Of a stretch of DNA of 52,107 nucleotides, positions 24,519 to 27,479 are shown piece after piece. A model generated the notes under the pieces. The model was not told where the DNA came from. It was given only the letters and a program-made list of their open reading frames with translations, and did not search any database. Source of the stretch: Defluviitaleaceae bacterium (GTDB lineage: Bacteria > Bacillota_I > Bacilli_A > MOL361 > Turicibacteraceae); NCBI GenBank assembly GCA_009778135.1, contig WRKJ01000103.1, forward strand, positions 1 to 52,107, read 5' to 3'. Position numbers and translations under genes: made by a program. Numbering within the stretch: position 1 is the stretch's first letter; each line of letters begins with the position of its first letter.

Positions 24519-25212
24519 AGTCACAAATATGAATACTTACTACGGGAATATCTATGCCGTTAAAGATGTTTCATTTGATGTTTCTAAGGGTGACATCATC
24601 TCGTTAATTGGCGCAAATGGGGCAGGGAAGTCAACCATTTTAAAAACAATCTCTGGACTTTTACATAGCAAAACCGGTTCGATTACTTTTTTAGACCAAG
24701 ACATTTCAAAAGTAGCGCCTCATCAAGTCGTCAAGTCAGGTTTAGCACATGTTCCAGAAGGTAGGCGCGTGTTCCTCTCTATGTCTGTGCAAGAGAATTT
24801 AGAAATGGGTAGCTACACACAGCCTAAAAAATTAATGGCTGCGCGCATCGAAGACGTTTATGATAAATTTCCACGGTTAAAAGAACGTTACAAACAAGTC
24901 GCTGGAACATTATCAGGTGGTGAGCAACAAATGCTCGCCATGGGACGTGCCATGATGAGTCACCCCGCCTTATTAATGCTTGATGAACCCTCTATGGGGC
25001 TGGCACCTTTGTTAGTCGAACAAATCTTTAACATCATTAAAGAATTAAATGATGCTGGGACCACGATTTTACTCGTTGAGCAAAATGCCCGTATGGCACT
25101 TTCTATTGCCAATAAAGGTTATGTTTTGGAAACAGGTAAAATCATTACATCTGGTCCTGGGAAAGAACTATTAGAAAATGAAATTGTTAAAAAAGCTTAC
25201 CTTGGTGGTTAA
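24511..25212 (+). CDS. livF: Branched-chain amino acid ABC transporter ATPase LivF
   Basis: The second ATPase of the system: Walker A GANGAGKSTILKTISG, signature LSGGEQQMLAMGRAMM, Walker B LLMLDEPSMGLAP, H-loop LLVEQN, with the LivF marker HVPEGRRVF. The length is 233 aa, as in E. coli LivF. The ATG at 24511 (AAGGAG upstream) lies within the 3' end of the fused gene, so translation is coupled. The operon ends here with a strong terminator. Confidence 0.94.
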   Translation: MLKVTNMNTYYGNIYAVKDVSFDVSKGDIISLIGANGAGKSTILKTISGLLHSKTGSITFLDQDISKVAPHQVVKSGLAHVPEGRRVFLSMSVQENLEMGSYTQPKKLMAARIEDVYDKFPRLKERYKQVAGTLSGGEQQMLAMGRAMMSHPALLMLDEPSMGLAPLLVEQIFNIIKELNDAGTTILLVEQNARMALSIANKGYVLETGKIITSGPGKELLENEIVKKAYLGG

Positions 25213-25256
25213 AAAAATCCCAGTTCATGTGATGACGCACGAACTGGAATTTTTAT
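25213..25256 (+). terminator. Terminator of the liv operon
   Basis: CCAGTTC-GTG pairs with GCAC-GAACTGG, followed by AATTTTTAT. Confidence 0.85.
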
Positions 25257-25261
25257 ATGCA

Positions 25262-25341
25262 TAAAAAAGCTCTATCCAATAGGAGTTGGGGGGAGACTCC
25301 TATTGGATAGAGCTAAGCAAATGACAGTGTGCTTAATCAAT
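25262..25341 (-). ncRNA. Small RNA 1 with C-rich terminator loop
   Basis: A strong promoter (25377-25348) gives an RNA start near 25341. The about 80-nt RNA has a 5' hairpin (AAGCA/TGCTT) and an 18-bp terminator stem (25313-25269, from GCTCTATCC to GGATAGAGC) whose loop is CTCCCCCCA, followed by six T. No reading frame of note. It is homologous to the RNA at 25481-25561; stem bases that differ between the two are compensated on the other arm. A C-run loop is typical of sRNAs that pair with Shine-Dalgarno sequences. Confidence 0.75.
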
Positions 25342-25347
25342 GAATAC

Positions 25348-25377
25348 ATTATAACATATCTCTTAGGCATTCGTCAA
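25348..25377 (-). promoter_or_regulatory. Promoter of small RNA 1
   Basis: TTGACG-18-TATAAT on the minus strand. Confidence 0.8.
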
Positions 25378-25480
25378 TACTTTTTTAATTTTTTTATCAT
25401 TTTTTGTCAACAGTTAAAATTCATAGCGCATCGTACGCTTTCGGTTACAAGCAAGCTTAGTTGAATCCAGCCTATTCCAT

Positions 25481-25561
25481 CAAAAGCTCTGTCCTGTAGA
25501 AGCTGGGGGGAGAGACTTCTACAGGACAGAGCTAAGCAAATGATGCTGTGCTTGAATTGAT
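25481..25561 (-). ncRNA. Small RNA 2 with C-rich terminator loop
   Basis: Paralogue of small RNA 1: same spacing from a strong promoter, same AAGCA...TGCTT 5' hairpin with TCATTTGCTTAGCTCT shared, a 17-bp stem (25532-25486) and loop containing CTCCCCCCA. At least four stem positions differ from copy 1 and all keep pairing. Only four T follow the stem, so termination may be less efficient here. Length about 80 nt. Confidence 0.75.
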
Positions 25562-25567
25562 ATACAA

Positions 25568-25597
25568 ATTATAACATATTTCTTCCTCATTAGTCAA
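25568..25597 (-). promoter_or_regulatory. Promoter of small RNA 2
   Basis: TTGACT-18-TATAAT on the minus strand; same geometry as for small RNA 1. Confidence 0.8.
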
Positions 25598-25621
25598 TAC
25601 TTTTTTAAATTTTTTTAAAAT

Positions 25622-25656
25622 AAAAAATCTGCTAAAGACATCAAGCAGATTTTTAT
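25622..25656 (-). terminator. Terminator of the suf operon
   Basis: AATCTGCT pairs with AGCAGATT and is followed by a T run on the minus strand (T-rich on both strands, so it may act both ways). Confidence 0.8.
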
Positions 25657-25681: not shown

Positions 25682-27109
25682 TTAACCAATTGAACCTTCC
25701 ATCTCTAATTTAAGAAGCTGATTCAATTCAACCGCATATTCCATCGGTAGTTCTTTTGCGAATGGTTCAATGAATCCCATGATGATCATTTCAGTCGCTT
25801 GTTCTTCTGATAAGCCACGGCTCATTAAATAGAACAATTGCTCTTCTGACACACGTGATACTTTCGCTTCGTGTTGAACGATAATGTCACCATTTTTCGT
25901 CACGTTGTATGGTACTGTATCAGATTTTGACAGGTCATCCAAAATAATCGTATCACACTCAATATTAGATTTAGCACCTGTTGCATTTTTACCATGCTCA
26001 ACAAGACCATGATAAGTTACGTTTCCACCTTGACGAGAAAGTGATTTCGATACAATGGTTGATGACGTATTTTTTCCTAAGTGAATCATTTTCGCACCTG
26101 CATCTTGCGTTTGTCCTGCACCTGCAAAAGCAATCGAAATGGTTGTTCCAGAAGAATAATCTCCTTTTAAAATACACGCTGGATATTTCATCGTAATCTT
26201 TGACCCAATGTTGCCATCAATCCATTCCATATGCGCATTGTTTTCACATAAAGCACGCTTTGTTACCAGGTTTAAAATGTTATTTGACCAGTTTTGAATG
26301 GTCGTATAACGGCAACGTCCACCATCTTTAATATAGATTTCAACAACCGCTGAGTGAAGGGAGTTCGCTGTGTAAATTGGCGCTGTACAACCTTCGACAT
26401 AATGGACATCTGCCCCTTCGTCGACAATGATTAACGTCCGTTCAAACTGTCCCATAGACTCAGAGTTAATACGGAAGTAAGATTGCAATGGCTTGCTTAA
26501 TTTAGCTCCTTTTGGCACATAAATAAACGATCCACCTGACCAAACCGCACTGTTTAATGCAGCAAATTTATTGTCAGTCATCGGTACTACTTTAGCAAAA
26601 TATTGTTTGAATAAATCACCATGCTCTTTTAAAGCTGTATCCGTATCTAAGAAAACAACCCCTTGCTCTTCTAACTCTTTTTGATTGTTATGGTAAACCA
26701 CTTCTGATTCGTATTGTGTCGACACACCTGATAAATATTTCGCTTCTGCTTCAGGAATACCTAATTTATCAAATGTTTCTTTAATGTTATCAGGTACATC
26801 ATCCCAATTGGCAGCTGCACGATCAGAAGGCTTAATATAGTACGTATAAGAATCAAAATCACACTCTGCTTCTAAATCTGGTCCCCAAGTCGGCATGGGT
26901 TGCTTCAAAAACTCCTGATAAGCTTTTAAACGGAATTCAAGCATCCATTCTGGCTCACCTTTCGTTTCACTCATGGTACGGATAACATCCTCATTTAAAC
27001 CTTTCCCCGTATCTAATACATTCTCATGCTCTGTAATGAAGCCGTACTTATAATCGGTCATTACATCATTCATTTGTTCATTCATGTTGCTAATTGCTTC
27101 ATTTGCCAT
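25682..27109 (-). CDS. sufB: Fe-S cluster assembly scaffold subunit SufB
   Basis: SufB is the scaffold of the SufBCD complex on which Fe-S clusters are built. The 475-aa protein has the expected [23 protein letters not shown], the beta-helix core, [19 protein letters not shown] and the C-terminal [42 protein letters not shown] lies nine bases before the ATG at 27109. It is the last gene of the operon sufC-D-S-U-B but is separated from sufU by about 560 bases that hold an unrelated MNT gene. Confidence 0.97.
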
Positions 27110-27179: not shown

Positions 27180-27479
27180 TCATGTTTCTCCATAAATTAA
27201 AATTCCTTTTTCCTTAATCTCGCAATCTATCTTACTAGCAGGTTGAATTTCAAATTTTGCAATTAAATCTACAGGCATATTGAAGCTATTCTCCAATTCA
27301 GCCTTCATTCCAAAAAAGTCTAATGCGTCTATCTCCTCATCAACATCAACAACGACATCAATATCACTCACTGGTCGTGCGGTATGCGTTGCGTGAGAAC
27401 CAAACAGAATGGCTTGTTTGACGTTGTTAGCAGTAAAAATAGGCGAGAACTTCTTCTTTATTTCATCAATTGTTAGCAT
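27180..27479 (-). CDS. MNT-type nucleotidyltransferase (99 aa), orphan
   Basis: Minimal nucleotidyltransferase with the canonical motif GS followed ten residues later by DID (GSHATHTARPVSDID), then VVVDVDEE and a third acidic strand PVDLIA. MNT proteins are usually the antitoxin of HEPN-MNT pairs and AMPylate the HEPN toxin. No HEPN gene is adjacent on either side; a frame ending YLNGTIEYLVQGR stops two bases before this ATG and may be the remnant of an upstream partner. Its ribosome site is weak (GGGCG). The gene interrupts the suf operon, which suggests insertion. Confidence 0.8.
   Translation of the reverse strand: MLTIDEIKKKFSPIFTANNVKQAILFGSHATHTARPVSDIDVVVDVDEEIDALDFFGMKAELENSFNMPVDLIAKFEIQPASKIDCEIKEKGILIYGET

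Follow-up and report, generated by a model that had tools for sequence, protein, structure and literature searches.

Two short units between the liv and suf operons

The window, meaning the whole stretch of 52,107 nucleotides that was analysed, contains an intergenic gap where the liv and suf operons converge, bordered by the end of livF (position 25212, plus strand) and the end of sufB (position 25682, minus strand). Two short units lie in this gap, both on the minus strand: unit 1 comes after sufB, and unit 2 heads toward livF (Table 1). Each operon has its own terminator, which rules out that the units serve as 3' UTRs or as terminators shared with the operons. The suf terminator precedes the unit 1 promoter, so that the sRNA units are not the suf 3' UTR, and the liv terminator stops short of the end of unit 2, so that the liv and unit 2 transcripts would abut without overlap.

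A side observation concerns the suf operon itself, which has a solitary MNT-like nucleotidyltransferase (Pfam Polbeta/NTP_transf_2; 27180-27479, minus strand) between sufU and sufB. At that suf position, a genome of the same genus has instead an ORF that is presumably HAD-like (L024:846-1490).

Table 1. Positions of the units, their flanking terminators and related RNAs. Positions without a prefix refer to the window; z, folding z-score against dinucleotide shuffles; CM, covariance model.
Feature	Position	Strand	Basis and remarks
liv operon terminator (convergent)	25220..25254	+	sequence
suf operon terminator, upstream of unit 1 promoter	25621..25655	-	sequence
Unit 1, A-tract (UP-element-like) and -35 TTGACT (25597-25592)	25592..25620	-	sequence; common to unit 2 and third copy; best promoter-like site of the region
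Unit 1, -10 TATAAT, TG-extended, 18 nt from -35	25568..25573	-	sequence, promoter scan
Unit 1, predicted sRNA, ~80 nt, no ORF	25482..25561	-	sequence; z = -8.96; CM match 25478-25554
Unit 1, conserved 5' element AAGCACANNNTCATTTGCTT, weak AAGCA/TGCTT hairpin	25534..25553	-	17/20 positions identical across three copies
Unit 1, terminator stem, 5' arm, 18 bp	25516..25533	-	folding, stem comparison
Unit 1, loop TCTCTCCCCCCAG	25503..25515	-	sequence; C-run 86% unpaired (predicted)
Unit 1, terminator stem, 3' arm	25485..25502	-	followed by short T run, 25484-25482
Unit 2, A-tract (UP-element-like) and -35 TTGACG (25377-25372)	25372..25400	-	sequence; common to all copies
Unit 2, -10 TATAAT, TG-extended, 18 nt from -35	25348..25353	-	sequence, promoter scan
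Unit 2, predicted sRNA, ~79 nt, no ORF	25263..25341	-	z = -8.90; CM match 25260-25335
Unit 2, conserved 5' element AAGCACANNNTCATTTGCTT	25315..25334	-	alignment of copies
Unit 2, terminator stem, 5' arm, 18 bp	25297..25314	-	four pairs unlike unit 1, all compensated
Unit 2, loop TCTCCCCCCAA	25286..25296	-	sequence; C-run 89% unpaired (predicted)
Unit 2, terminator stem, 3' arm	25268..25285	-	followed by T5, 25267-25263
Third copy	G000:C106:48347-48466		elsewhere in the window's genome
Long RNA, genome G004	L123:1550-1873; L129:1512-1834
Long RNA, single loci	L124 (G006); L125 (G005); L126 (G003); L127 (G007)
Long RNA, genome G002	L128:1513-1823; L130:329-511; L130:617-883

A scan of 3 kb gave 11 promoter-like sites; the two unit promoters ranked highest, each matching at 11 of 12 positions. 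This agrees with the first-pass annotation, made from the sequence alone, which had described strong promoters for both units; a TG extension can now be added. With the 5' ends placed about 7 nt downstream of the -10 box, the predicted RNAs have the size of about 80 nt that had been proposed, and reading by eye found no ORF in either. Both fold with strongly negative z-scores (Table 1). The terminator stem, previously given as 17-18 bp, is a perfect 18 bp in both units, and UCUCCCCCCA is present in both terminator loops, as claimed. The U tract of unit 1 is short (UUUUG).

A third copy and compensatory changes in the stem

In a search of the whole genome with unit 1 as query, unit 2 was found with E = 1e-20 and a third copy, at G000:C106:48347-48461, with E = 1e-12. 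The earlier description as twin genes fits the two units but undercounts the family, which has at least three copies in the genome: three were found in 2.3 Mb, two of them in tandem. The third copy has the same build: an A-tract, TTGACG and TATAAT as promoter, the 5' element, and an 18-bp stem whose loop carries C7. Its neighbours are read in one direction and, judging from their sequences, are presumably ylxM and an ecfT-like gene.

Between units 1 and 2, exactly four pairs of the stem have changed, every one of them with compensation, which bears out the first-pass count of at least four. With the third copy included, the stem has 12 invariant pairs out of 18, five in which both bases have changed and still pair, one that alternates between A-U and G-U, and none that is broken. 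The compensation score was equalled in only 3 of 500 shuffles, and the paired fraction drops to 30-46% when the pairing of the stem is slid. As judged from these comparisons, which are between paralogs of one genome, the stem is under selection. Retention of stem and C-run in homologues had been one of the points on which the first-pass reading was to stand or fall; within this genome, the third paralog keeps both.

Predicted folding leaves the C-run 86-100% unpaired in all three copies, and the stems of 18-19 bp in the three units compare with enclosing stems of at most 8 bp at the other TCCCCCC sites (40 tested in the genome).

The evidence is different for the 5' part, which had been described as conserved together with the loop. 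Conservation extends to the third paralog, but the AAGCA/TGCTT hairpin is weaker than stated, at about -3 kcal/mol, and in the minimum-energy fold of unit 1 the 5' region pairs otherwise. All five pairs of this hairpin are sequence-invariant across copies, and it therefore has no covariation support. A CAU accompanies the C-run motif in all three copies and sits in the loop of the weak hairpin; this CAU, within AAGCACANNNTCATTTGCTT, is a possible candidate for an anti-start-codon.

These features bear on two explanations that would need no trans-acting RNA. The units might be mere strong terminators or transcription blockers between convergent operons, with incidental promoters, and the convergent intergenic setting and the terminator-like stems would suit such a role. 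We consider this very unlikely, because liv and suf have terminators of their own, the T tract of the units fits termination on the minus strand only, conservation of the hairpin is accompanied by that of the promoter, the A-tract and the 5' element, and the third copy lies between genes of the same direction. Alternatively, read-through transcripts could exert antisense control in cis on livF or suf mRNA, as might be suspected from unit 2 being aimed into livF and from the position of unit 1 after sufB. However, both units end before they reach a neighbouring gene, unit 2 and the liv terminator face each other end to end, and the third copy has different neighbours, which leaves control in cis barely credible.

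Distribution of the units

In order to search more widely, we used a covariance model, R1, built from the three copies. In 8 genomes from the family and 395 from the class, confident matches were confined to the three copies in the window's genome. The covariance-model search that had been put forward in the first-pass annotation thus recovers the copies, but zero homologues in other species among the 395 class genomes. The exact pattern AAGCACANNNTCATTTGCTTRGCTCT had zero matches in GTDB genome contigs, and blastn against phage and plasmid records gave none either. A short exact pattern did give 10 matches in viral contigs; these covered the 5' element only, without the C-loop, in a number near chance, and were dropped.

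In the single other genome of the same genus (75% complete), no unit was found at the sufB or ylxM sites: a thrC-like gene follows sufB there, and ylxM has no preceding unit. No Rfam family reached threshold over the window. Rfam matches below threshold, to leaders, to miRNAs and, on the opposite strand, to Srn266, were taken as chance. As matches are confined to the window's genome, the sRNA family is young or fast-evolving. Its sequence family is new, and its kind is already known.

The lack of matches in related genomes, together with three dispersed copies, two of them in tandem, and a perfect inverted repeat, could also point to a dispersed repeat (REP-like, or a non-autonomous mobile hairpin) with a promoter by chance. 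There are, however, just three copies in the genome and no match in the phage and plasmid records. The copies have diverged by 22-25%, yet the stem is compensated throughout and the promoter and 5' element are conserved, which argues for function. A repeat of this kind is accordingly a highly improbable source of the units.

Proposed masking of G-rich ribosome sites

The reading that we regard as fairly likely, by analogy with known sRNAs, is that the two units and the third copy are a small family of trans-acting sRNA genes, of about 80 nt each, that would mask G-rich ribosome sites. The three units would be transcribed into ~80-nt RNAs, in which the loop (UCUCCCCCCA or ACCCCCCCA) would pair with the G-runs of ribosome binding sites and so block translation, possibly with help from the 5' element, which might pair at the start codon through its CAU. 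The terminator stem would also present the C-run, so that folding, termination and seed display would be served by one element. Since the copies differ in their stems and share the same seed, they probably act redundantly or additively.

The genome offers many sites for such pairing: GGGGGN{4,10}ATG occurs 155 times, compared with 60 for the reversed pattern, and G-run ribosome sites are therefore numerous. Among 40 window genes, predicted binding of the loop averaged -6.9 kcal/mol at start regions versus -2.9 kcal/mol at internal regions. Composition-matched shuffled loops, however, bound the start regions equally well, so that the pairing potential of the loop is an effect of composition and describes a capacity rather than a target. 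Of the proposed pairing with G-rich ribosome sites, the parts that are supported are the C-run, predicted to be unpaired, and the enrichment of G-runs at ribosome-site distance before ATG; the check by target prediction that went with it did not favour the real loop over shuffled ones at the translation starts of the 40 window genes.

A predicted lipoprotein gene elsewhere in the window's genome (L166; G000:C84, GATGGGGGGAGATAATTTTATG) has a ribosome site that is perfectly complementary, over 10 nt, to the loops of units 1 and 2 (TCTCCCCCCA). This loop complement, TGGGGGGAGA, is the longest perfect one found at a ribosome site, and one such site is about the number expected by chance. On this sequence match, L166 is a candidate target of the two loops.

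A long C-rich RNA in two sister genera

A weak R1 match in genome G004 (E 0.06 per genome) led to a separate RNA between prfA and prmC. Two genera of the same family (g2 and g3), which are without units of the twin type, carry this C-rich RNA on the strand opposite to the two genes. Its size is 180-325 nt (about 320 in all five g3 genomes; 183, 267 and 311 in the G002 copies), and C makes up 25-30% and G 10-14% of its sequence; most of its 4-9 C-runs are unpaired by prediction. There are two tandem copies in G004 and three in G002, two of the latter in tandem on one contig (Table 1).

One hairpin with a CCCCCC loop (alignment columns 220-253) has 14 pairs; in nine of them both bases have changed and still pair, and the C-run loop is retained in most sequences. 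The long RNA had no Rfam match at threshold; the alpha-r14 model, the only one to come near, scored 39.7 and 33.9 bits, below its 58.8. Among the 395 genomes of the class, a model of the 5' domain found the RNA in g2 and g3 only. Two extra matches to this domain (E 0.003) were weak and at chance level for 395 genomes, and were rejected. In the genus of the window, the long RNA was not found. The neighbours of prmC are different in that genus, and a contig end truncates prfA in the window's genome, so that absence is likely but not proven.

Upstream of the long RNA (before position 1550 of L123, and at the same position in L124-L130), a GTTTAA is conserved 13-14 nt before an equally conserved CAT/TAT-ATTG block, an arrangement that recalls a site for an alternative sigma factor more than a -35/-10 pair.

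The long RNA resembles the units in its C-run loops, its covarying stems and its multiple copies in two genomes, and its hairpin CTGTAGAGG-TCTCCCCCC-CCTCTACAG, to which the weak R1 match belongs, is similar to the unit stems, which may reflect homology or convergence. It differs in being larger, in having more C-runs, in its locus and promoter region, and in a conserved 5' domain without counterpart in the units. One might imagine a lineage-specific C-run RNA system that would tune translation globally by masking G-rich ribosome sites, with a long multivalent RNA in two genera, and with a reduced form in the genus of the window, where scattered genes for single hairpins would descend from one hairpin of the system; we hold this to be a doubtful, tentative idea.

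As a separate observation, each of the five g3 genomes has GGGGG in the ribosome site of ylxM (L035, L036, L037, L039, L040), and in the window's genome the third sRNA copy lies directly upstream of ylxM, possibly by coincidence.

Comparison with known C-rich-loop sRNAs

No comparable RNA was found for this lineage in Rfam or in the literature searched. The analysis adds an unlisted sRNA family to the lineage, and an unlisted long multi-C-loop RNA, the unexpected part, in its sister genera. Like anti-SD sRNAs in general, the units have their own promoter, an intrinsic terminator, no ORF and a conserved C-rich seed that is predicted to be unpaired.

LhrC1-5 of Listeria have UCCC/CUCCC loop motifs, also in the terminator loop, which pair with ribosome sites, as has been tested; these RNAs are 111-114 nt long and LisRK-dependent, with three motifs each and nearly identical copies (PMC4132741). 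The units share the multicopy arrangement, both dispersed and clustered, and the C-rich motif in the terminator loop. Unlike LhrC with its three CU-rich motifs, they have a single C6-C7 run in about 80 nt, divergent stems and a near-consensus promoter, and the window has no Rfam family at gathering threshold (LhrC included, if it has a family there).

The csRNAs of Streptococcus expose unpaired anti-SD and CAU segments, the CAU being proposed to meet the start codon, and are transcribed from CiaR-controlled promoters with TTTAAG repeats (PMC3091779). They resemble the units in being small, in having several copies per genome and in combining a hairpin with a terminator hairpin; a C-run and a CAU are present in all three units, the CAU in the loop of the weak hairpin. 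The pneumococcal type, however, has its anti-SD between the hairpins, whereas the C-run of the units is in the terminator loop, and no CiaR repeat (TTTAAG-N5-TTTAAG, up to 2 mismatches allowed) was found at the units.

More distant parallels exist. In 6C RNA/B11 of actinobacteria, C-runs in hairpin loops pair with G-runs of ribosome sites, as has been tested (PMC10470900); the likeness is the C-run in a hairpin loop, but these RNAs have two C-loops and belong to another phylum, while the units have one C-loop and no Rfam match. In alpha-r14/NfeR1 of alphaproteobacteria, whose mechanism has been tested, three hairpins carry CCUCCUCCC (PMC10746234). As in the units, the same anti-SD motif is found on hairpins of differing stem sequence; the units have nothing like the three CCUCCUCCC hairpins, and the model (gathering threshold 58.8 bits) had no match in the window.

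Several copies, a loop motif that recurs and stems that vary are also what one would expect of protein-sequestering RNAs, a parallel drawn for LhrC (PMC4132741). The C-loops might then bind a protein, with the copies titrating an RNA-binding protein like CsrB/RsmZ and the stem presenting the protein site. This seems unlikely to us, as the C-rich-loop sRNAs with a tested mechanism pair with mRNA, and one motif on a short RNA makes a poor sponge.

What limits an sRNA with a seed that simply complements the ribosome site, and why such sRNAs are so often multicopy, are questions that can be asked from the occurrence of C-run loops on freely changing stems in actinobacteria, alphaproteobacteria, Listeria and streptococci, and also here.
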